Shown here piece after piece: positions 1 through 16,177 of a stretch of 28,850 nt of DNA (position 1 is its first letter; every line of letters begins with the position of its first letter). The stretch comes from a virus, in the IMG/VR virus record IMGVR_UViG_3300002242_000608, positions 11,234 to 40,083 of that record; one strand, 5' to 3'. The position numbers were made by a program, and so were the translations under genes. The notes under the pieces are model-generated. The model worked only from the letters and a program-made list of their open reading frames with translations, was not told the DNA's origin and searched no databases.

Positions 1-297
1 AGTAATAGACCTAGTTATATCACAGGAGATGGAAGATCCTTTGCATCTAAAATTGAACCTGCTTATGATGCAGGTGTTACTCAAGATCAGTTTAACCAAC
101 TAGCTAAAACACAAGATCAAAGAGATGCTATTACTAAATTCTTTGCACGTCAAGAAGCATTAAAAGTTCCTCCTAATGAATCTCTCTTAGACAGAATGAG
201 AAGACAAGCTACTAATAATGAAGTTGCAGCAGGTAAAGAACCTTTCAGTCTTAACGATACTTTACAAAAAACTTATGATCACTTCTCTGGGAATTAA
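1..297 (+). CDS. 3' end of an upstream late-region protein (partial)
   Basis: The frame starting at base 1 is open to a TAA at 295-297, giving the last 98 residues of a protein that begins left of the window. The visible part is hydrophilic and probably helical, rich in Gln, Asp and Lys, and ends DHFSGN. There is no recognisable domain. Its stop lies 3 nt before the next ATG on the same strand, so it sits in the same operon as the two large virion genes that follow. In N4-like phages the genes just before the virion RNA polymerase encode internal virion or tail proteins, so a virion role is plausible, but this is inference from position only. Confidence 0.75.
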   Translation, partial: SNRPSYITGDGRSFASKIEPAYDAGVTQDQFNQLAKTQDQRDAITKFFARQEALKVPPNESLLDRMRRQATNNEVAAGKEPFSLNDTLQKTYDHFSGN

Positions 298-300
298 ATT

Positions 301-3069
301 ATGAGTTTAGATGAGTTTTTTACTCCTGACTCCTCGTTATTTGAAGCTAATAAGTATGGAAATCTTGTAGCTAAACAAGAACAAAAAGCTTCAAGATTAC
401 TAGATGCTGTTAATCCTTCGGGAAAAGCATACATTCCAATGTCTCAAGATTCCTCTGTAGGTGGAAACCTTGGAGGTTTAGCAGCATCTGGAGGAATACA
501 AGAACTTAGTGATGAATTTAATGCAACTAAAGACTTAGCTAACTTAGCTGGTGCTGATTTCCAAATGCCTGCTGGAGGGAACTATTCAGGTCCTTTACAA
601 GCAGATAAGTTTGTAGGATTAGACCCTAGAGTAAGACAAAACTTACATCAACAACAGCAACAAGCAATGACCGATGTGGCTAATGGGGACGTTATTAATA
701 GTATCGTAGATATTGCTAAAGCTGCTCCAGGAACTCTTGCAGACAGTTCTGGTACCCTTGGTTCAAGTATTGCAGGATCATTAGCTATTGGAGCTGCTGG
801 AAGTCCTGTTGCGGGAATTGCTAATGAAATTAAGTCTCTTAGACGTATTTATAACAAGTTCTCTAAACTTGGAGATGAATATAAGGCAGTTAAAAAAGCA
901 AATCAAGCTATTAAAGCATCTGCTAAAGCCTTAGCTCAATCATCTTTTATGAATGTTGCAGAAACTGAACGTCAAGTTCAACAGTATAGAGATTCCCACG
1001 GAGGACGTAATCCTACTGCAGATAGATTTGCAACTATGGCTATAGGTGCTGCAATTACTCAAACAGCAGAAATTGGAATCCTTAAACATCTTTATCTTCC
1101 AAAAGGAAAAGAATCTTTAAATGCTATAAAATCCTTAATTAATGCTATGAAACCTAACTCTTCTGCTATTGCTAGTATGGCAAAACGAATTGGTTCAGGT
1201 ATGCTAAAGATGTCTGAAGCTGGTGGAGCTGAAGGAGTTCAGGAATACTTACAAACTTGGCAACAACTTTTATCTCAAAAAGTAGATCCTAAAACAGGTC
1301 AAACTCTTTATGACGCTGTAATGGAACAAGTAAACAATAAAGAAAACCAACAGCAAGCTGCAGGAGCTGCAGCTCTAGGTGTAGGTGCTGGTGGATTAGC
1401 TAGAGGAATTACTACTATTCCTGCTACTGGTGTAGGTTTAGGTGTTGATGCTACTACAGGAACTGTTAAAACTATAGCTAAAGGAGTTACGGGAACTCTT
1501 AAGTATGCAGCTAATAGAAATTCCAGAAATAACTTATCTGAAGAAGATAAGCAAAATTTCCATACTGAATATGAAGCTGCTGCTCAAGTATCTCAACAAA
1601 AGTTAGATGACTTACAGCAACAAGCAGATATTATTAAAAATGCAAAAAGTTTTGATGACCTTCAGCAACATGAAGAAGTTGCACGAAAAGTTGAAGAACT
1701 TAGACAGAATCTTAACATTCCTCAAGAGAATTTAAGCAACCCTAAAGTGCTTAAGCAAGTTAAGAAAGCGTTACAAATAGATAATAAAAAAGTTAAAACT
1801 GTAATCCAAAAAGAACTAGGCGGATCTAATTTAGCTCACTTTAAGCATAGAACTGGTAATCCCCTAGAGGAGGACACAGTAGCTCCTACTCAAGAATCTG
1901 TAGATAACCTTGTGGAAACAGTAAATAGTGCTTCTAAAGAAAGTGAAAATACACCTTCTAAAGAAGCTATTACTCAAGCTGCAAATGAATTAGAAACTCA
2001 ATCAGCTGTAGACACTGTTAAGGATATTAATAAAGATCCTTCAATAGTGCCTGGAAGAGTATTACAAAGAGCACAACAGCTATCTGCACATGATTTAGAA
2101 AGAGTTGCTGCTCTTGTCAGTCATACGAATCCTGAAGCTGCTAAAGCATTACAGAAACTTCATAGACGTAGGACTAGCGCACAAAATGCATTTTCTCCTA
2201 AAGGCTCTAAGATTATAGACGACTCTAACATAGACTCTTTTGGCATAGTTGGAGACGTAGCTAAAGGAGGAATAACAAATGAAACTCATATACCTAATTT
2301 ATCTGCAACCCTTAGTGCCATTATGCATAAGAACATCAAGGGTCTTAATACTATTAAAACTCTACAGAATGCTATATCCCACTATGAAAATAGTGAAGCA
2401 TTTAAAAAGCAAGGTAAAGGGGTTATTCATCCAAGAACCTTAGCTAAATGGAAAAAACGACTTGATAACTTAGCTAAACGAGAAGAAGCTCAAGCTAAAG
2501 AGGAGTCTTCTACTTCGAAAAAGACTTCTAAGGAAAATTCCTCAGATTCTTCTAAACAGACATCCGATAAAAAATCTTCTGAAGAGACACCTGATACTTC
2601 TAATGAGAGTTCCTCACAGGCTTCTGAGGAGACTTCTAAGGAAACTCCATCAGATACTACCTCGAAAGAGCAAAAGCCTCCTAAAGAGGAAACTACGAAG
2701 GCTACTTCAGAGAAAACTCCATCTAAGCCTGAAGTTAAAGCAAGTAAATCAGTACAAACATTTATTCATATCTTAGTAAAAGAAATAGATGAAGGAACAA
2801 ACTTAAATGATGGTACACAACATATCTTTAAGGAACTCCCTAAACTAGTTGCTCAGTTAAGTAAAGAAGGATATAGAACAAATAAAGATTTTAACGATCT
2901 TATTGAACAATACCCATCACTTAAGAAAAATGCTGAAGTTTATAACCTACTTAAGTTAGCATTATATAACCCTAATGAAGAAGAGGATTCCACAGTGCCT
3001 TCTAAAAAACTTACATTAGAAGAAAGTAAAGAAGCTTACCGTAAACTATTCCCAGAGTGTAAAGTATAA
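301..3069 (+). CDS. 922-aa virion/ejection protein, candidate N-terminal part of a split virion RNA polymerase
   Basis: The protein starts at ATG 301, 3 nt after the previous stop. Two Gly/Ala-rich, weakly hydrophobic stretches (about residues 148-175 and 353-383) are separated by a Lys-rich helical region, a pattern common in podovirus ejected proteins. A segment AGGAEGVQEYLQTW (about 308-321) resembles the EG..E..Q motif of large phage virion proteins. Residues about 730-815 are a low-complexity Ser/Thr/Glu/Lys linker, followed by a roughly 100-residue C-terminal helical part. No enzyme motif was found. Its TAA overlaps the ATG of the polymerase gene (TAATG), so the two are translationally coupled. 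N4 vRNAP carries about 1000 residues ahead of its polymerase domain. This ORF has about that size and place and may be the same domain as a separate chain (inference). A separate internal virion protein is the alternative. Confidence 0.7.
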   Translation: MSLDEFFTPDSSLFEANKYGNLVAKQEQKASRLLDAVNPSGKAYIPMSQDSSVGGNLGGLAASGGIQELSDEFNATKDLANLAGADFQMPAGGNYSGPLQADKFVGLDPRVRQNLHQQQQQAMTDVANGDVINSIVDIAKAAPGTLADSSGTLGSSIAGSLAIGAAGSPVAGIANEIKSLRRIYNKFSKLGDEYKAVKKANQAIKASAKALAQSSFMNVAETERQVQQYRDSHGGRNPTADRFATMAIGAAITQTAEIGILKHLYLPKGKESLNAIKSLINAMKPNSSAIASMAKRIGSGMLKMSEAGGAEGVQEYLQTWQQLLSQKVDPKTGQTLYDAVMEQVNNKENQQQAAGAAALGVGAGGLARGITTIPATGVGLGVDATTGTVKTIAKGVTGTLKYAANRNSRNNLSEEDKQNFHTEYEAAAQVSQQKLDDLQQQADIIKNAKSFDDLQQHEEVARKVEELRQNLNIPQENLSNPKVLKQVKKALQIDNKKVKTVIQKELGGSNLAHFKHRTGNPLEEDTVAPTQESVDNLVETVNSASKESENTPSKEAITQAANELETQSAVDTVKDINKDPSIVPGRVLQRAQQLSAHDLERVAALVSHTNPEAAKALQKLHRRRTSAQNAFSPKGSKIIDDSNIDSFGIVGDVAKGGITNETHIPNLSATLSAIMHKNIKGLNTIKTLQNAISHYENSEAFKKQGKGVIHPRTLAKWKKRLDNLAKREEAQAKEESSTSKKTSKENSSDSSKQTSDKKSSEETPDTSNESSSQASEETSKETPSDTTSKEQKPPKEETTKATSEKTPSKPEVKASKSVQTFIHILVKEIDEGTNLNDGTQHIFKELPKLVAQLSKEGYRTNKDFNDLIEQYPSLKKNAEVYNLLKLALYNPNEEEDSTVPSKKLTLEESKEAYRKLFPECKV

Positions 3070-6000
3070 TGAGCTGTCCAGATTTTGAAGAATTTCAAAA
3101 AACAGTACTAGGTATTGATAAAGAAGGTGCAGTAGTCCTAGACGAGAATAATCCTTTACGCTATGACGTATGGGGCACTACTGGAGAACAGATTAAAAGC
3201 TTAATTACTGATTTATTTATAGGAGTTCTTCCTAAAGGTAAACGTAACTCTACGGCTATTGTAAATAAGCTAGAGGGAGCACTTAAACGACTTACCAATA
3301 ACCCTAATAAGCCTAATGAGTTTTATAAAAAGCTTTTTAGTAACTCAGACAGCACTGTAGCTAAAAGCATAGCTCTTTATGAAGTTATGGAAGCTACTAA
3401 GGGAGAATCTGATAAAGCTAATAATTTTAAGATTGATATTAATAAAATAACAGTAAACGGAATACTTCCTAATTTACCTTTAGCAAGAATAGCATCAGTT
3501 ATAGGTAGAAAAGTTCTTTACCAACAAGGCTATCGAATTGCGAGTTCTAAAGACAATAAAATGTCTCCTGAACAAATAGAAGCGTTATACCATGAAACAG
3601 GTATGCAAGCTTTACGTCTTCTTGAAAAAGATGGATTTATAACATCTCCTGATAAAGGACTGTCTATTAAAGACCATATTAAGGCAGAAGACCAAAATAA
3701 GCCTATTAAAGTAAAAGAAACAGGAATGAATGCTACTACAGATAGTACTCCAGTTATTTCTTTAAATCCTAAAGCATTTGGAATCAAAAAAGCTGATAGC
3801 GAAGAAGCTAAATACTTTTTAGAAAGACAAAGATCAGATACTACTAATACAGAACTTGGAGCTATTACGGATGCTCTTGGAGCTATTAGATACTTAACAC
3901 AACCTACAAAGTATGTTGTTCCTGATACTAAGCCAACTATGTCAGAAAAGGAATTTCGTTCATTAGACGACCAAAAAACCGTTGTAGGTGATACTTTAGA
4001 CAAGGTACGTCAAAAACTTTATGAAAAGAATCTTAAAGTTCATGGAGCTGTTCATGAGTTATTAAAACTTTTACATAAAGAAGTACAGAGAAGTGGATTA
4101 CCTGCATCTAAAGTTATCAAACAAATTTATAAAGGTAGACCTGAATTACTTAGGTCTTTATTTGGAATAAAAGATGTAAATAACTTTTCTGTAGATAAAG
4201 CAGAAAGTACTGCAGGACAATCACTCTCTAAAACTACTGCTATTGATGACATTGCAGAGTTTTATGACCTACTGATGTCAGATGAAGAACCTGCAAATTT
4301 ACACCTTGGGTTAAAAGGTGGACGTAACATACGTCTTTATTACATAAATAGTGTATTAAATCCTCATGCATCTAAACAAAGCAGGTATGCTCTTACTCCA
4401 GGAGAACAAACTCTTGAAGTAGGTAGTGATGACTATGACTACTTTATTCATAAAGTTGCTGATTTTATGGGTCATGGTTTAACTTATGCAAATATTGTAG
4501 GAGTATCTGGAAAACTAAATAAAAATTTAGAAGAAGCTCTTAAAGTTTATGACAGATACCTTAAAGATTCTTCTCTTAAAGATAAGCTATTTCGTTTAAG
4601 TGAATTGCCTCATTTATTTCCTGGAACAGACTATATATCTCTGTTAACTACGTTGCAAGCAGTTAAAGATATTCGTAATAATACAGACGGAAAAATTACT
4701 ACTGAATTTACTGTATCTTCAGATGCTATTGCTTCAGGTGGTTCATTAACCTTTTTTCAAGCATTAGGAACTAACCCTAATATTAAAGCTTTCTTAGAAC
4801 GCTTAGGAATGTTAGTTAAAGATGATGGTACCATAGAAGTATCTAATGCGGATATTTACTCCTTAATGATTGAAGCAGTAGATTCTTATCTAAAAACAGA
4901 GCATCCTGCTGAGTTAGCTCAAGACTTAGGAACAAAACCTAGTAACGTTAAGGAAGTATTAACAGATACGTTAAATCTTCTTTTTGATGATGGTAATGAT
5001 GTTAGGGAGTTTGCTAAACCTCCTACAATGACCTTTGTATACCAGCAAGGAAAAGAAGGCTCTAAAGAGACTATGACTTCTTCATTAGCTGATAGAATTA
5101 TTGAAAATGTTGATGATCCAAAAACTAGAGAGTACTTAGCTAAGCTACTAGATGACCCTAGTTATTTGAAAACTTCTAAGATTGAATTACTTGCTGAAGA
5201 AGGACTCTACAGTAAAATTCAAGAAGCTCTTGTGGATAGTGGACTTCCAGAAAAGCTATATGACTTATTAGACGTTGCGGTAAAAGAAAAATACTTAGCT
5301 GAAAATGTAGAAAGATCAAACAGAATATTCGCATTAGTTAAGAAAACCGTAGGTAATAAAGTAGTAAAAATACTTCCAGCAGATGCTATTTTAGATAACA
5401 AAACTGCTTCTAAGGATTTAGCCCAATATGGTATGGCAATTGCTAAAGTCTTTGAGATTATGCATAAAATGCCTGATGGTACTGATGTGCTTACTCGTAA
5501 AGAGTTACTTCATAAAACTATTATGGATGTATCAGCAATTCATGGAATTGACTCTGCCTTAATCTATCATGCTTTAGATAGAGCAGGATTCAAAGATGGA
5601 GTTGTAGTAGTTCATGATGATGTTAGAGGCACTGTAGCAACTGTAAGAGCTGTAGAAAAGGCTTATAAAGAAATTGCTAAAGAACTATTAGGTTCTTATG
5701 ATATTCATCAACAAATGTTAGAAGCTCTAAAAGTCTATGCTCCAGACGTAGTAAATAAGGCTGAGTACCAAGAATTAGTTAAAGAAGTGAATGGAACAGT
5801 AGAAACTAAGCGGAAATTATCAAAGAAATTTAACTTAGACACTACTGCATTAATAGGAGATGGTGATAAGTATAAAGCGTTTAAAGCAGAAAGTATGGAT
5901 AGTAAGGATGAAATTCCTGTTGCCACTAAAGAAAAAGTTGAACCTAAAGCGGAAACTCCTAGGAAACCTAAAGTTCCTAGGAAACCTAAAGTTCCTAAGG

Positions 6001-9000
6001 AACCTAAAGGACTATTTTCAGTTTTTACACCTTCTTCCGATGGAGATGAAACAAAAACAACAGCTACAAAAGCTAATCCTTCTGTAGCAACTAAAGATTA
6101 CGTTGAAGATTTAGCTAAAGATTCATTACTAATTAGGAAGTTTTTAGCTCATTTCAGTACCAAGGTTAGAAAAGGTAAGAATTTTAAATATAACCCTAAA
6201 ACTGACACTATTACTGTAAATCCAACAATAACAGATAGGACTGCAGCAATAGAAGCTGTTGAACATGAAATTATTCATGCAGCTACAGTAGGTAAGATTG
6301 TACAAGTTATGAGTTCTGACTCTAACGTAGATGAAGGAACTAAAAGGGATATTACATATATCCATCGTACTCTCCAAGGTCTTCAAAACTCTAGTAATAT
6401 CAAATCAGAACTGATTAAGAAAACCTTAACTTACATTAACACTAAAGGTACTGATCAAGAACGAGTTGCAGAATTTGTAGCAATTATGCACTCAGATCCT
6501 GAATTTGCTAATGATGTATATGTGCAACTTGGACATTCTCCTAAACAAGGAAGACTTGCTAGGGTAATTGAAAAGTTACGTAAAATCGTAAAAGCTTTAA
6601 CAGCAGAAGATGAAAATTTACCTATTCACCCTGTAAAACTTTATGGAGCGTTAAAGCGTACTTTAGATACTGGAATTACGGAAAGAAAACTTCATGAACA
6701 GGAAGTTACAAAAGTTCTTAATAATATTAATCAAACTTATGGATTCCATAAAAAATTAAAAGAATCTACAGTAGATTACTTAAATAAAGCAGTAGCTAGA
6801 ATTATTGTGGATAGGTCAGAAGAAGCAGGTAAAACAGCTTTAGGATACTCACATAGACTTTTAAGTAACTCTGAGTTGTATTCTAAAGTATTTGAAAAGA
6901 TGAAAGGAGTATATGACTCTTCTGAGGATTTTCGTGCTCTTATACATGCAATTACAGGTGAAAATGTTAATAAGTCTAAAAAAGCTAAAGTTCTTGCTCA
7001 GTTTGCTAAAGTAACAGCTCAAAGAAATGATTTTATTCAAAAGCATTTAACTCAATTCGATGAATTGACAAAAGACTTATCTGAAAAGGATTCAGCTACT
7101 TTAGATAATGCAATTATGAAAATTCCTTTACACGAGTACTTTGTACAAGCTAAAGAGCTTAATACCGTAGAAAGTATTAATGCAGAAGTGAAAGCACTTG
7201 AGATTAAACTTAAAGACCATAAGGATATTTTAAAGGATATTGATGATTTAGTGAATTTAGATATTCACGACAAAGTAACAGGAACTGCTTACAATCTTTA
7301 CAGTTTTAGTTCTGAAAAATCAGAGTTTCACAGTGATATTAGAAAATTACATGCATTAAGGACTATTCAAACTGTAGGAACTCAAAAATTTGTAAACCTA
7401 CTTAAAAATGAAGACCTAATGGCTGCTTTACAAGATCAAGTAACGGCTAATCATTTAAGCCTTGTAGGTATAAATGGTAGAAATCATATGAGAGCAGCAG
7501 GGATTCCTCATAGTTATGAAGAAGGAATTGAAAGAAGGGTGATTACTCTTAAACAACTAGCTGCGTATGAAAGTGGGGAAGATACTGAAGGGTGGGAAGT
7601 AGTAACGAAACCTACAGAAACTACTTTGGGTTTGGTATACAGAAAAGTTATAGACTCTACAACACTTCCAGGAGCCTTTACAGACGTTAAAATGTCTACT
7701 GCGGACTTTGCTGTAACTCCTGACCTTAAAGGCTATAGTAACGTAATAAACACACCTACAGGCTATAAAGTAGTTGTTACGGAGAAAGAACGTAAAGCTA
7801 TGGGTGTTTTAAGTCCTGTACAGTCGCTTATAAGAAGTACTGCTCATGCAGTATCTATTCAGGAATCTGAAATTATTAGAAGTGAAATGTTAAAGGATGA
7901 AACTACTTTTACAGTAGGTAAAGATTCTATGAAAGAACTTCAAGATACTCTTGCTGATGAAAGTAGAGATGATCCTTGGTTCTTAAAAGAAGACGGAATA
8001 GCGTATAAAGATTTACCAAAAGAAGTAAGAAATAAATACCGCCCAGTAGGTAAAAGAGCATCTAATGTAAATAACTTTGATAAGAAAGTAACATGGGTAC
8101 GTAAAGATATTGCTCATTGGTTACTAGGAGGAAGAGCTAATTCTCCTTTTACAGATCCTAAATGGAAATGGGGAATACGAATAGTTAAAGATATTGTATC
8201 TATGAGTAAAATAGGAATGGTAGTTTTGAATCCAGGAAAAATTGCTAGAGATAATATTTCTAATATAGCCTATTTAGGTGCTGTAGGTGTTGATCCATTA
8301 TTTGCTCATAATAACTATAAAGAAATTATGGCGCAATACGGAGAGTACACAAAAGTTAAAAATGAACTGTTAAATTTAAAAGTTCGTTTATTAGCTAATC
8401 CTAATAGCACTACGCTTAAGGCTAAAGAAAAAGCTTTAAGAGTTAAAATGAAACAAAACCCAATTTCGTCTATTGAGGATAAAGGGTTTTTAAACTCCTT
8501 AGGGTCTTCTCTTATCTCACGAGAAAGCCAGACGTTAGGAGGTGCTCAAAAAGATGTAAATACAGCTCTTAAATACCTATTGGATTCTAAAGATGGAAAA
8601 CAAACTTACGTTGCTCATTTCCTTTTAACTTTACAAAATATAGGATACCAAGGAGAAGACTTTTTACTCCATTTAGCTAATATAGTAGGTAAATATGGAC
8701 CAGGAAAAGAACTCGAAAGTGAATTAACTAAAGTACATAACAGACTTTCTCAGATTAGAACTGATAAGGATGCTGTAGCATACGCTTCACAGTTTATTAA
8801 TGCTCCTCAATCTGAGACTGTACGTCTTGGTGCAAGTATTACAGATTTATCAGACGTACTGGCTAAAGAAACTTATTACAGATACCTAGTGCAAAAAGGT
8901 ATGGGAGAGGAAGAAGCTAAAATTAAAGTTTTAGATTCATTCCCTAACTATATTGAAAATATGCCTATGAAGGTACAGCAAGCAAGTGATTTAGGTATTT

Positions 9001-9236
9001 TGATGTTTCCTTCTTTCTGGCTAAGAGTCCAAAAGATTATTTATAGATTAGCTAAAGATAGACCTTTAAGTATCGGAACTGAAGAAGTTATAGACAGCTT
9101 CTTAGGTACGCATATTGAAAATGTTGTCGATGCTAATATCTATAATAAAGCTACAAGTTGGGGAGGAATACTCCATAGTCCATTTGAAACATTTGGACCT
9201 GGAGCAATCCTTCCTACACATGCATTTAGTTTTTAA
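3069..9236 (+). CDS. N4-like virion RNA polymerase (T7-type single-subunit RNAP) with C-terminal zincin-motif half
   Basis: Residues 1 to about 930 carry the single-subunit RNAP signature. A GGR motif (R419) is followed by NPH (431-433). Motif A is D552-AIA-S556-G557, with the T7 spacing D..S+4, G+5, and is followed by ADIYSLM, like T7 DIYGIV. Motif B is R646-x3-K650-x7-Y658, the T7 spacing of R627, K631, Y639. Motif C is VVVHDDV with H849-D850. In N4 mini-vRNAP the equivalents are near 424, 559, 666, 670, 678 and 951, so this protein starts about where that domain starts. A Pro/Lys repeat linker (964-981) leads to a second half with HEIIH at 1066-1070 (zincin-like) and NPGKIARDN near 1721, resembling phage domain LPD38. 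Deviations are YQ after motif B where T7 has YG, and HDD where T7 has HDS. The TAA overlaps the convergent 66-aa gene by 11 bp. N4 vRNAP is packaged and injected to transcribe early genes; that role here is inference. Confidence 0.88.
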   Translation: MSCPDFEEFQKTVLGIDKEGAVVLDENNPLRYDVWGTTGEQIKSLITDLFIGVLPKGKRNSTAIVNKLEGALKRLTNNPNKPNEFYKKLFSNSDSTVAKSIALYEVMEATKGESDKANNFKIDINKITVNGILPNLPLARIASVIGRKVLYQQGYRIASSKDNKMSPEQIEALYHETGMQALRLLEKDGFITSPDKGLSIKDHIKAEDQNKPIKVKETGMNATTDSTPVISLNPKAFGIKKADSEEAKYFLERQRSDTTNTELGAITDALGAIRYLTQPTKYVVPDTKPTMSEKEFRSLDDQKTVVGDTLDKVRQKLYEKNLKVHGAVHELLKLLHKEVQRSGLPASKVIKQIYKGRPELLRSLFGIKDVNNFSVDKAESTAGQSLSKTTAIDDIAEFYDLLMSDEEPANLHLGLKGGRNIRLYYINSVLNPHASKQSRYALTPGEQTLEVGSDDYDYFIHKVADFMGHGLTYANIVGVSGKLNKNLEEALKVYDRYLKDSSLKDKLFRLSELPHLFPGTDYISLLTTLQAVKDIRNNTDGKITTEFTVSSDAIASGGSLTFFQALGTNPNIKAFLERLGMLVKDDGTIEVSNADIYSLMIEAVDSYLKTEHPAELAQDLGTKPSNVKEVLTDTLNLLFDDGNDVREFAKPPTMTFVYQQGKEGSKETMTSSLADRIIENVDDPKTREYLAKLLDDPSYLKTSKIELLAEEGLYSKIQEALVDSGLPEKLYDLLDVAVKEKYLAENVERSNRIFALVKKTVGNKVVKILPADAILDNKTASKDLAQYGMAIAKVFEIMHKMPDGTDVLTRKELLHKTIMDVSAIHGIDSALIYHALDRAGFKDGVVVVHDDVRGTVATVRAVEKAYKEIAKELLGSYDIHQQMLEALKVYAPDVVNKAEYQELVKEVNGTVETKRKLSKKFNLDTTALIGDGDKYKAFKAESMDSKDEIPVATKEKVEPKAETPRKPKVPRKPKVPKEPKGLFSVFTPSSDGDETKTTATKANPSVATKDYVEDLAKDSLLIRKFLAHFSTKVRKGKNFKYNPKTDTITVNPTITDRTAAIEAVEHEIIHAATVGKIVQVMSSDSNVDEGTKRDITYIHRTLQGLQNSSNIKSELIKKTLTYINTKGTDQERVAEFVAIMHSDPEFANDVYVQLGHSPKQGRLARVIEKLRKIVKALTAEDENLPIHPVKLYGALKRTLDTGITERKLHEQEVTKVLNNINQTYGFHKKLKESTVDYLNKAVARIIVDRSEEAGKTALGYSHRLLSNSELYSKVFEKMKGVYDSSEDFRALIHAITGENVNKSKKAKVLAQFAKVTAQRNDFIQKHLTQFDELTKDLSEKDSATLDNAIMKIPLHEYFVQAKELNTVESINAEVKALEIKLKDHKDILKDIDDLVNLDIHDKVTGTAYNLYSFSSEKSEFHSDIRKLHALRTIQTVGTQKFVNLLKNEDLMAALQDQVTANHLSLVGINGRNHMRAAGIPHSYEEGIERRVITLKQLAAYESGEDTEGWEVVTKPTETTLGLVYRKVIDSTTLPGAFTDVKMSTADFAVTPDLKGYSNVINTPTGYKVVVTEKERKAMGVLSPVQSLIRSTAHAVSIQESEIIRSEMLKDETTFTVGKDSMKELQDTLADESRDDPWFLKEDGIAYKDLPKEVRNKYRPVGKRASNVNNFDKKVTWVRKDIAHWLLGGRANSPFTDPKWKWGIRIVKDIVSMSKIGMVVLNPGKIARDNISNIAYLGAVGVDPLFAHNNYKEIMAQYGEYTKVKNELLNLKVRLLANPNSTTLKAKEKALRVKMKQNPISSIEDKGFLNSLGSSLISRESQTLGGAQKDVNTALKYLLDSKDGKQTYVAHFLLTLQNIGYQGEDFLLHLANIVGKYGPGKELESELTKVHNRLSQIRTDKDAVAYASQFINAPQSETVRLGASITDLSDVLAKETYYRYLVQKGMGEEEAKIKVLDSFPNYIENMPMKVQQASDLGILMFPSFWLRVQKIIYRLAKDRPLSIGTEEVIDSFLGTHIENVVDANIYNKATSWGGILHSPFETFGPGAILPTHAFSF
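5958..6010 (+). repeat. 18-bp tandem repeat (about 3 copies) coding a Pro/Lys linker
   Basis: Two identical 18-bp units (5958-5975, 5976-5993) and a third imperfect unit (5994 to about 6010) encode PRKPKV, PRKPKV and PKEPKG inside the 2055-aa protein. The unit is in frame, so copy-number changes would keep the frame. It lies about 115 residues after polymerase motif C and about 85 before the HEIIH motif, so it looks like an extended linker between the polymerase and the C-terminal half. Confidence 0.9.
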
Positions 9237-12915: not shown

Positions 12916-14721
12916 TTAATGGTTATTTTTAAGTTTTTGAAGTACTTCAGTAACCTCCTCTGGAGTAGCGTTATTTTCTATTTTTTCTAAGTCTGCCCAA
13001 TTAAAGCCTATTTCACCTTCAGCTTCGTTATGTACTTGTTCATTTTCTAAATAAGGAACACACATAACCTCAATAAGATTTTTATTTAACCAAGCAATAA
13101 CTTCTGGGTCTTTATCTACATCAACATAAATACTATCGTAAATCGTAGATTGAATATCCATCCTATCTTCCAATCCTGCTTCCCTAATTCTATGATTAAG
13201 CTCATTTACAGCTATTAGAGTTAGAATACTCCAGAATTGCACAGTGGCATTTGCCAATGTTCTAATCTCTTTCTCAGGGTCCCTTGTATACATTCTGCAT
13301 CCAAGACCTAAATGAATATATCCTTGGTCTTTAGCAGTTTTTAATACATAATTTTCTCTATAATCCGTAATTCCTGGAAATAGCTCGTTATGGTAAACAT
13401 TAAAGATTCTTTCAGCTTCTTCAAGTAAACATTTAATAGATTGAGCTACCTTAGGAGGAAATGCTCCATAAGCTAATCCAAAAGAAACAGGCTTAGAATC
13501 TTGTCTTATTTGTTTAGCTTCTTTATTACTCTCCTCAACTAGTTTCTTAAGTAGCCGACTAGCTTCTTTGAAATCTTCAAAAGGACCTATAAGACTTTCA
13601 ACTCTAGTTTTAAAGTAGTAGCAAGCAGATAAGGAATGTCCATCTAAACCCTCTAGAAATAGAGCGAGTTTATTAGTATCTTTAGATAAGTTAGCAATAA
13701 CCCTATCTTCTAAAGCAGATAAATCAGCAGTATAGATTACTCTTCCCTCAGAGGCTATAAAGCACCTTTTAAGCAGTTTAGCGTAAATAGAGCCTGTACT
13801 AGGCGCATTAAGCAAATTTGGGCTGTTAGAAGTGTTTCTAAAGCTTTTAGCACCAAATAATTTAATATTTCCGTGAAGTACTCCATCAATAGTATAAGAA
13901 TCAAAAGCTTTTAAGAAATTACTTTTAATAATTCCACTATAAGAAAAATCTATAAAAGCTTGAAGAATTTTTAAAACTTCTTCATCTACAACTATCTGTT
14001 GTAATTCCTCTATTTGGTCCCTTCCCCAAGAGGCATTTCCTGTTTTTTTACTTACTGAAAGAGGTTCAAGATTTAACATAGCAAATAGCTCTTGTTTTTG
14101 AACAGCACTTCCAGGATTAAATTTAGGAACAGGAACAGGCTGATTAGCAGACTCATATCTTGGACGATTCCATAAATCTAACTTATATTCTGCTAATTTT
14201 TTCATTCCCTCTTTGGTATATAAGTAATTAGAAATATCTTGTTTACTTAACAACGCATTAATAAAAGGAGCTTTTAACCAAACTTGAAGAGCTTTAAGAG
14301 CAGCAATAGTCCACTTATCCTTAATTTTATTTTCATGTCCTTGAGACTCTAAAAAGTAATTTACCACCCAAGTACGATGAACTATATCTTTAGGGTTATA
14401 CTGTTTTAAAAAGTATGAAAGTGTTCTTACATTTGCAGTAGCTTTAGCTTTATGAACTTCTTGAAGTTTTTTAGCTCTAACTTCTTGATACTGTTTAATT
14501 ATTGGATTTCTATTAAGTCTTTTTGTAACATCCTTTAATACAGAATCTATAGTTCTTCTAAGTTTTTCTACTGCTCTATAATCAATATGCAACCCTGTAT
14601 TCATCAATTTAATCATATCTTCAATAAATTTAGATGCAAAATTATTGTAAAAATACTCAGGTCCAGGATCGTATTCACTAGGAAGAGGCAAAGGAAGTAA
14701 TTCAAAAGGACGTTTACTCAT
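12916..14721 (-). CDS. family A DNA polymerase, polymerase-domain half
   Basis: The protein has palm and fingers motifs but no exonuclease domain. Motif A is ADLSALEDRV (D333), motif B is R406-QDS-K410-PVSFGLAYGA, and motif C is IYDSIYVDV (D529). Motif C reads YDS where most family A enzymes have HDE, keeping only the central Asp. The preferred start is ATG 14721, with AGGAG 9 nt upstream. An ATG at 14727 would add 2 residues, but AGGAG is then only 3 nt away. The reading frame is closed by a TAG three codons before 14727, so it does not run on from the exonuclease. The N-terminal 30 residues, then KFIEDMIKLMNTGLHID, correspond to the region just after Exo III in intact polymerases, so little is missing. 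The partner exonuclease is encoded at 15518-16177. Confidence 0.93.
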   Translation of the reverse strand: MSKRPFELLPLPLPSEYDPGPEYFYNNFASKFIEDMIKLMNTGLHIDYRAVEKLRRTIDSVLKDVTKRLNRNPIIKQYQEVRAKKLQEVHKAKATANVRTLSYFLKQYNPKDIVHRTWVVNYFLESQGHENKIKDKWTIAALKALQVWLKAPFINALLSKQDISNYLYTKEGMKKLAEYKLDLWNRPRYESANQPVPVPKFNPGSAVQKQELFAMLNLEPLSVSKKTGNASWGRDQIEELQQIVVDEEVLKILQAFIDFSYSGIIKSNFLKAFDSYTIDGVLHGNIKLFGAKSFRNTSNSPNLLNAPSTGSIYAKLLKRCFIASEGRVIYTADLSALEDRVIANLSKDTNKLALFLEGLDGHSLSACYYFKTRVESLIGPFEDFKEASRLLKKLVEESNKEAKQIRQDSKPVSFGLAYGAFPPKVAQSIKCLLEEAERIFNVYHNELFPGITDYRENYVLKTAKDQGYIHLGLGCRMYTRDPEKEIRTLANATVQFWSILTLIAVNELNHRIREAGLEDRMDIQSTIYDSIYVDVDKDPEVIAWLNKNLIEVMCVPYLENEQVHNEAEGEIGFNWADLEKIENNATPEEVTEVLQKLKNNH

Positions 14722-15478
14722 GATCATCCACTCCTAAATGTTTTTGTAAATGTTCCCACAATTTTACGTACTCATAATCACTAAAATTTCGTTTGCTTTT
14801 TAGCCCCGAATCAATAATAAACTTTTCTCTATGAAGTGCTCCTGAAAGGGCTGAAGGAAAGTACCCGTCAAAAACACGAGTCTTTTTAATAGTTACTTGA
14901 GCAGTCCAGGGATTCTTAAATTTGGCTATCCTTTTCGGGGCAGATACTCCAACATACCCTGAAGTATTAACGGATGTGAGTACTCTACCTGTATTAGACT
15001 CCACCTTTTCTGTAAATCCGTTAGTTGTATGAGGTAAGTCATTATCGGTTACGTAAGTATCATATGCTTTAGCAGCATCTAAAATTAAGTCATAGTATCC
15101 GATTTTTATGGTTTTTGTATTTACACTAATGGATACCTCCCATTTTTGGTATGCTACATTCCAACTTACTCCTCTGTATCCTGATTTATTATGTTTATAA
15201 AGAATCCGCGTATTAGCTGATTGTACTAACTGAGAAGTCCACCTACAGTTATTTGGTTCATAGTTACCATCGTTATCAATACGATCTATTGAAGCATTTT
15301 GGGAATATCCATTACTGTTAGCCCAAGCCCTGAACGCTGTATATGAATTATGCCACTCAGGGCATACTTTAATGCCTTTTTTCAGGTATTCTGTACAATA
15401 CGTAGATTTACATCTGTTTTTCATGCCTTTCCAGATATTGTATAATCGAGTACCGCTATCACCGTGTCTTTCAAACAT
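14714..15478 (-). CDS. HNH homing-type endonuclease with AP2-like DNA-binding domains
   Basis: The 254-aa protein begins with an HNH domain (about residues 10-90): GTRLYNIWKGMKNRC, CPEWHNSYTAF, and ASIDRIDNDGNYEPNNCRWTS with the catalytic D-N-H-N type pattern. Two AP2-like repeats follow: NKSGYRGVSWN...KWEVSISV (about 95-140) and NTSGYVGVSAP...WTAQVTI (about 168-215). This architecture is typical of phage selfish endonucleases. It lies exactly between the exonuclease and polymerase halves of the DNA polymerase. Its own ribosome site (AAGGA) is 6 nt before the ATG. The C-terminal codons contain the ribosome site and start of the polymerase gene (8-bp overlap with ATG 14721), so it has become part of the coupled operon. 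Confidence 0.9.
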   Translation of the reverse strand: MFERHGDSGTRLYNIWKGMKNRCKSTYCTEYLKKGIKVCPEWHNSYTAFRAWANSNGYSQNASIDRIDNDGNYEPNNCRWTSQLVQSANTRILYKHNKSGYRGVSWNVAYQKWEVSISVNTKTIKIGYYDLILDAAKAYDTYVTDNDLPHTTNGFTEKVESNTGRVLTSVNTSGYVGVSAPKRIAKFKNPWTAQVTIKKTRVFDGYFPSALSGALHREKFIIDSGLKSKRNFSDYEYVKLWEHLQKHLGVDDHE

Positions 15479-15512
15479 TTAAAATTCCTTACATTTAGAG
15501 TATATACATAAT

Positions 15513-15597
15513 ACCGTCTATTGCACTGTACTATCAAGATGTACCTGTGCCTGCTCGAAAAAAAGCATTACGGCTGCACCGTCAATTGCACAGTACT
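15513..15597 (-). repeat. 20-bp imperfect direct repeat beside the polymerase split
   Basis: The stretch coding the Exo III motif (15578-15597) recurs 65 bp further downstream (15513-15532) with 18 of 20 bases identical. The downstream copy straddles the exonuclease stop codon and would read YSAIDG in another frame. It marks the junction where the HNH gene separates the polymerase halves. Confidence 0.85.
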
Positions 15598-16177
15598 CTA
15601 GAAAATCTAAGTCTCTAAGGTTCTCAGGTTCATAAGCGTCATAAAGACTCCAACTAGGCTTGTAATGACTACCCATAAGCTCTTTTAAACCTACTAAGGC
15701 TTTATAGTTATCCGCATTGTTAATTAAGCATTTAGCTAATAACATTCCATCCGTATAGCTTTTGGGAAATGCGTTAACTCTGTTATACATAATTTTTAAG
15801 TCAAATAAAGCATTCCATATTCTTAAATGTCCATTATAATTTTTTACCCAATTCCAAATAACCATCTCTTCTTCATAAGAAGAAGCTATAAGAATATAAG
15901 AAAAGCTTTTTGATACTCCAAATATAAAATGTGTAGTATTTACCAAAGAAGGAAAACTTAAACCTGAGTTATTAACTATAAGGCTATACTCTGCTCTTAC
16001 TTTCGGATTTGTTACTCCTTTATCTAAAAGCTGTTTAGCTTGTTTACGCTCTTCTTTTGAGTACATTCCTTTAGTTTCTGTATCAAAACTTAATAGTGGT
16101 ATATTTTCTAATTTTTTAAGAAGTCTTCTACGCTTCCAATCAGTAGAAGCTACTTCATATTCCACTTCAATAGTCAT
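15518..16177 (-). CDS. DNA polymerase 3'-5' exonuclease half
   Basis: The 219-aa protein carries the three DnaQ-like exonuclease motifs of family A polymerases: Exo I LLSFDTETKG (D32, E34), Exo II IWNALFDLKIMYN, and Exo III LEYCAIDGAAV (Y...D). It ends 19 residues after Exo III, in HLDSTVQ, where an intact polymerase would run into the thumb. It is the proofreading domain of the polymerase encoded at 12916-14721, expressed as a separate chain; the two presumably assemble. The ATG is 2 nt after the TAA of the secreted 103-aa gene, and AAGGAG in the end of that gene is the ribosome site. The last residues lie next to a duplicated 20-bp sequence and may not be ancestral. Confidence 0.9.
   Translation of the reverse strand: MTIEVEYEVASTDWKRRRLLKKLENIPLLSFDTETKGMYSKEERKQAKQLLDKGVTNPKVRAEYSLIVNNSGLSFPSLVNTTHFIFGVSKSFSYILIASSYEEEMVIWNWVKNYNGHLRIWNALFDLKIMYNRVNAFPKSYTDGMLLAKCLINNADNYKALVGLKELMGSHYKPSWSLYDAYEPENLRDLDFLEYCAIDGAAVMLFFEQAQVHLDSTVQ

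Follow-up and report, generated by a model that had tools for sequence, protein, structure and literature searches.

The phage behind IMG/VR record IMGVR_UViG_3300002242_000608 encodes a naturally two-chain virion RNA polymerase (vRNAP) of the Schitoviridae (N4-like) type. The enzyme is divided between its N-terminal domain (NTD) and its polymerase domain, the division is conserved in relatives, and each chain carries one cysteine, located at its cut end. The sole source for this phage is a 40-kb metagenome contig. The window, i.e. the whole stretch of DNA analyzed here (28,850 nucleotides), corresponds to bases 11234–40083 of the virus record, which is 40,083 bases long.

A virion RNA polymerase in two chains

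The vRNAP locus and its upstream neighbor comprise the following features, given in window positions unless stated otherwise:

1–297, plus strand: C-terminal end of the gp51-like ejection protein ORF (489 aa in total, start upstream of the window)
L004 10061–11530 (record positions; window position = record position minus 11233): full gp51-like ORF
301–3069, plus strand: chain A, 922 aa, separate N-terminal (membrane/ejection) domain of the vRNAP (hhalign)
3058–3060, plus strand: codon of Cys920, the only cysteine of chain A and the third residue from its C-terminus (sequence)
3069–9236, plus strand: chain B, 2055 aa, polymerase and C-terminal domain of the vRNAP (PHROG, hhalign)
3075–3077, plus strand: codon of Cys3, the only cysteine of chain B (sequence; invariant in the divided clade)
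3366–5858, plus strand: single-subunit RNA polymerase domain, approximately residues 100–930 (hhalign, AlphaFold/Foldseek)
4323–5618, plus strand: catalytic residues R419, D552, R646, K650, Y658, and H849-D850 (invariant in alignments)
6006–9176, plus strand: C-terminal domain (CTD), equivalent to C1 and C2 of N4 vRNAP, approximately residues 980–2036 (hhalign)
6264–6278, plus strand: HEIIH, residues 1066–1070, the HExxH zincin-like motif of N4 sub-domain C1 (sequence)

The late genes in the left part of the record encode a portal protein (640 aa), a 346-aa ORF, the major capsid protein (MCP; 415 aa), two small ORFs, and gp53-like (934 aa), gp52-like (133 aa) and gp51-like (489 aa) proteins, followed by chains A and B; the replication genes are opposed to them. 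This is the late-gene order of the Schitoviridae (portal, MCP, gp53, gp52-like, gp51-like, vRNAP), and N4 has the same neighborhood with gp50 in the last place. The gp53-like protein was confirmed by profile (E = 2.5e-56). The gp51-like ORF, which had no sequence match to canonical gp51, was assigned from its location, flanked by the gp52-like ORF and the vRNAP, and the gp52-like ORF was likewise assigned by position. The gp51-like gene (L004:10061–11530) contains ambiguous bases (X residues), as in a population consensus. Elsewhere in the window, a DNA polymerase I gene is seemingly split at positions 12916–16177, as judged from translations only, into a polymerase part (12916–14727) and an exonuclease part (15518–16177) by a putative HNH-type (homing endonuclease-like) ORF at 14714–15478.

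Instead of the one polypeptide that characterizes N4-type vRNAPs, the window holds two ORFs in different reading frames. Their extents and lengths are as reported in the initial annotation, and they overlap by one base inside TAATG.

The 2055-aa ORF encodes an N4-type polymerase together with the regulatory C-terminal domain known from N4. It matched the PHROG family ‘virion RNA polymerase’ with an E-value of 9e-33. When compared by hhalign with 50–51 single-chain vRNAPs that had been divided along the domain borders of N4, chain B matched the RNAP domain (99.5% over 680 columns) and the CTD (99.8%, E = 1.4e-29, 957 columns), where the E-values of such single comparisons are uncalibrated and the contrast with controls is the evidence. 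The RNAP motifs listed in the initial annotation (R419, D552 with SG at +4/+5, R646/K650/Y658, and H849-D850) are present at those positions with T7-like spacing, and D552, G557, R646, K650, H849, and D850 were invariant across 28 divided and single-chain polymerases. H1066, E1067, and H1070 of the HEIIH motif, whose counterpart in N4 sub-domain C1 is described in PMC12633501, were also invariant in the alignment. An AlphaFold model of residues 1–951, built from a 28-sequence alignment, reached a pLDDT of 85.9 and a pTM of 0.86, with low confidence for the N-terminal 30 residues. The ten best PDB matches of this model in Foldseek were all N4 vRNAP (2po4, 9pnq, 3c2p, and others; best match 2po4, the N4 mini-vRNAP, E = 2.6e-15), followed by mitochondrial RNAP (POLRMT) and T7 RNAP, which bears out the predicted single-subunit polymerase fold; the TM-scores of about 0.5 indicate that global domain placement differs. 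Sequence searches of the PDB with chain B (phmmer, hmmsearch) returned nothing, the protein being too divergent, and Pfam gave no significant hit.

To judge from profile comparison and gene order, chain A is homologous to the NTD of single-chain vRNAPs and occupies the place of this domain. Against the NTD of 50 single-chain vRNAPs, hhalign gave 97.6–97.7% (E = 2.8e-12), with the homology covering only ~130–200 columns, while controls reached at most 2.1%; profiles of gp51-like and gp53-like proteins, RNAP, and CTD spanned 0.2–1.2% (gp51-like 0.2%, gp53-like 1.2%). An earlier comparison with only four NTD sequences had given 46.9% and was replaced by the 50-sequence profile. These values agree with the initial proposal that the 922-aa ORF represents the front part of the N4 chain, and its reading as an unrelated ejection protein failed, as neither the gp51-like nor the gp53-like profile matched. 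Chain A has hydrophobic stretches at approximately residues 156, 243, and 355, alike in number and order to those of the N4 NTD at 118, 237, and 347; the N4 NTD goes into membrane nanodiscs (PMC12633501). The AlphaFold model of chain A was poor (pLDDT 49), with low confidence also for its last residues.

Thus, the window enzyme and N4 gp50 share three domains in the same order, the catalytic residues, the HExxH motif, and a near-absence of cysteine. By this homology and the gene order, the vRNAP of the window phage is predicted to be packaged in the virion and injected.

The division into two chains is not unique to the window phage. The Alteromonas phages PT11-V19 (1000 + 2082 aa, annotated as such in GenBank) and R22Y (1008 + 2083 aa, also with a TAATG-type overlap), two independently sequenced isolates with ~30–31% identity to the window polymerase, are cut at the same place and have the same lone terminal cysteines. 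The paper on R22Y mentions only the 2,083-aa vRNAP and does not comment on the front part or the cysteines (PMC11705849). The same division is seen in IMG/VR contigs (L009, L010, L011, L089, L090, L091, L093, L099, L100, and L101); a search for relatives in genome contigs found none. Within this clade, the gap between the ORFs ranges from −4 to +16 nt and, relative to the first ORF, the second is found in each of the three frames. Apart from the divided loci, essentially all complete vRNAP loci retrieved were single ORFs, and N4 and 57 other vRNAPs are single chains of ~3,000–4,500 aa with essentially no cysteine, in contrast to the two chains with one cysteine each in the window. Cryo-EM of N4 vRNAP revealed two flexible linkers, one of ~100 residues that separates NTD from RNAP and one of 23 residues that connects RNAP to CTD (PMC12633501), and the cut in the window clade falls at the first of them.

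Divided vRNAP genes could instead encode one continuous chain that is interrupted by a sequencing error, a programmed frameshift, or stop read-through. Such a view has precedents: the Alteromonas phage AD45 case is labeled ‘potential frameshift’ in GenBank, Zheng et al. 2023 (PMC10654107) ascribed its two ORFs to gene calling or read-through and joined them, and truly broken vRNAPs exist in As2, pSb-1, and L051. However, the division is conserved across many phages, the four AD45 isolates agree, junction lengths run from −4 to +46 nt with every reading frame represented, the two L106 genes have a reverse-strand ORF between them, and the true breaks have no terminal cysteine. We therefore consider a continuous chain very improbable. 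Read-through and frameshifting were rejected because the division is conserved while its junctions vary in length and frame, and the initial view of a natural division rather than a sequencing frameshift holds, as the break is kept in independent isolates with variable details.

Cysteines at the cut ends

N4 vRNAP was described as lacking cysteine (Kazmierczak 2002, as cited in PMC2784036), and the literature since 2002 has connected this lack with transit of the tail and the periplasm, reading it as a requirement for passage (PMC2784036, PMC3715699, PMC3915230). Our census extends the observation to 58 single-chain vRNAPs, which contained one cysteine in 204,036 residues, an internal one at residue 3319 of L071. 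Apparent N-terminal cysteines of L087 and L032 were artefacts of over-extended starts and were removed from the count.

This absence does not hold in the window, where each chain has one cysteine, at its cut end. Across the divided lineages (n = 19), we counted 40 cysteines in 69,057 residues. Exactly one cysteine was located within seven residues of each of the 40 cut ends (40/40), and none at the uncut ends (0/37); the count includes L105, whose chain B is truncated at the contig end. In divided polymerases, the cysteine occupies positions −1 to −6 in chain A and 3 to 6 in chain B. Under uniform placement, the log10 P of this pattern was −94, and −29 with one representative for each of five groups; as the 19 lineages are related, these P values are guides only. 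Cys920 of the window phage is one of only 21 invariant columns among nine chain-A relatives.

Background ORFs of the same phages contained 0.77% cysteine, and the gp53-like tail protein, which is not ejected, 0.39%. The ejected gp51-like proteins were free of cysteine in 52 of 53 cases, including the window phage, and both gp51-like and gp52-like proteins lacked it in all divided phages except for one gp51 cysteine in L073. Since these proteins are nearly all cysteine-free, the tips of the divided chains have only each other as partners. The tip cysteines are encoded by both TGT and TGC at varying distance from the junction, with the second gene in any frame, which argues for selection on the amino acid and not for an RNA signal.

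Ordinary gene fission with no functional link between the chains offers another explanation, in which cysteine is simply tolerated at flexible termini or serves metal binding or lipid attachment. As the division sites coincide with flexible linkers between N4 domains, a non-covalent assembly of separate chains is conceivable. Tolerance, however, would place cysteines at some termini and not at every cut end and no other, and Cys920 is invariant although the chain-A relatives are only 19–25% identical. A metal site would need more than one cysteine per chain, and a position that varies from −1 to −6 is at odds with a lipidation box. Plain fission of this kind thus appears quite unlikely.

Other cut positions and a proposed covalent link

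The cysteines follow the cut and not the domain, as they occur in groups divided at NTD|RNAP (the window clade and L073), at RNAP|CTD (AD45, L124–L126, and L106), and into three chains (L103). L073 has its cysteines at −4 and 6, and no relatives of it were found in IMG/VR. The Alteromonas phages AD45-P1 to P4 (Efbeekayvirus) resemble the window phage in their division and cut-end cysteines and differ from it by the RNAP|CTD cut. In AD45-P3 (2495|1409 aa), the cysteines are at −3 and 4, a pattern on which four isolates agree and which recurs in the relatives L124, L125, and L126. Both AD45-P3 chains (L117:8438–20162, KF005318) lack a CDS in GenBank, where the locus is marked ‘potential frameshift’. 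L106 (3232|2021 aa) is also cut at RNAP|CTD and has cysteines at −1 and 3. Chain B of the L106 phage (L111:3108–9173, IMGVR_UViG_3300019863_000024) contains a Dda/RecD-like helicase region at approximately residues 70–430, ahead of the vRNAP CTD, and possibly represents an ejected helicase.

L103, a 112-kb contig, provided a prediction. Its chain A (2804 aa, NTD and RNAP) ends in cysteine, and its chain B (3840 aa) has one cysteine at residue 4 and another as its last residue; as cysteines at both ends mark a middle chain, we predicted a third chain with an N-terminal cysteine. This chain was then found: it has 1457 aa, comprises the CTD (E = 3e-100), and contains a single cysteine, which is residue 6 in the called ORF and residue 4 when counted from an inner Met. 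The middle chain (L110:171–11693, minus strand, IMGVR_UViG_3300028534_000018) lies between the polymerase and CTD chains. As negative controls, the frameshift-broken vRNAPs of As2, pSb-1, and L051 had no cysteines at the broken ends. In As2 (Salmonella phage, L120, PQ785583) and pSb-1 (Shigella phage, L129, KF620435), the vRNAP is spread over several ORFs, probably because of sequencing errors.

We infer that chains A and B are probably stapled together in the virion by a disulfide, then threaded end to end, and freed in the reducing cytoplasm. Both chains would be packaged in the virion. The bacterial cytoplasm is reducing and the disulfide would thus have to form late, between the two lone cysteines, once the virion reaches oxidizing surroundings. 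The joined pair would then thread through the tail and the ejection channel end to end, like the single chain of N4, and the host cytoplasm would reduce the bond, so that the NTD stays at the membrane and the polymerase is freed. The low-confidence tips of both chain models are consistent with flexible ends. The initial annotation had suggested that a two-chain polymerase changes assembly and threading; this is reasonable, although the annotation overlooked the single cysteine at each cut end, a feature suggesting that the chains are re-joined.

The main competing explanation is that the terminal cysteines form homodimers (A–A and B–B) or tie the chains to other virion proteins. One lone cysteine per chain could equally pair like with like, and the N4 virion holds 4 ± 1 vRNAP copies (PMC12633501). 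Against this, the cysteines occur only at matching cut ends and at none of the 37 outer ends of first and last chains, the remaining ejected proteins lack cysteine, and the middle chains of L103 and of the Crassvirales phage phi14:2 have a cysteine at each end, as a head-to-tail string needs. We regard homodimers or ties to other proteins as unlikely, and favor the A–B staple.

Similar tips were found in the Crassvirales, for which we inspected five genomes only (L131–L135: crAss001, DAC15, phi14:2, crAss002, and C0521BW15). Giant RNAP-related proteins of crAss001 were detected in virions by mass spectrometry (PMC10172136), and the annotation of phi14:2 likewise places such proteins in the virion on the basis of mass spectrometry. 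In phi14:2, gp78 has one cysteine as its last residue, gp77 has cysteines at 3 and −2 only, and gp76 has one at 3. In crAss001, gp47 has one at −3, gp50 has them at 5, 1334, and −9, and gp49 has one at 5. Internal cysteines thus number one in crAss001 gp50, and there are four in DAC15, whose tips are otherwise similar. crAss002 and the p-crAss-like phage have the last two chains joined into one, which starts with MSC at an inner Met, and the gp47-like chain ends with cysteine at −2. Two thioredoxin-like genes were also seen close to the RNAP genes of the p-crAss-like phage. The order of the tips is that expected of a head-to-tail string. The Crassvirales thus resemble the window phage in having several giant virion chains with cysteine tips in first-middle-last order, and differ from it by another polymerase family (DFDxD motif) and some internal cysteines; no sequence match was found between their chains and those of the window.

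Slightly less firmly than the A–B staple itself, we favor a general design in which ejected giant chains are free of cysteine except for one at each divided end, are strung head to tail by disulfides, as two or three chains, in the virion, and are released in the host. It would have emerged at several cut positions in N4-like phages as well as in the Crassvirales with their unrelated polymerase.

Origin of the division and its implications

An unrooted RNAP tree separated the window clade (100%), L106, and L103 with AD45 from the 50 single chains and L073, the last being placed among the single-chain vRNAPs (96% SH-aLRT). Either the single-chain vRNAP came about by fusion of an enzyme that had several chains at first, and L073 was divided again, or the division arose repeatedly; the tree has long branches and is unrooted.

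No papers on cut-end cysteines were found in the open-access literature searched. Zheng et al. 2023 noticed two AD45 ORFs (PMC10654107), and the 2,500-aa length filter of that study would drop chains such as those of the window. ORFs that were thrown out as frameshifts or by length filters (AD45; PMC10654107) represent a real biological class.

A 380-kDa polymerase has to pass through a channel of ~35 Å. With one cysteine per cut end, these phages show natural cut positions and make the threading order and covalent continuity of the ejected chains testable, for which R22Y, PT11-V19, AD45, phi14:2, and crAss001 are culturable examples. The phages that break the no-cysteine rule suggest a redox switch that frees the injected enzyme.
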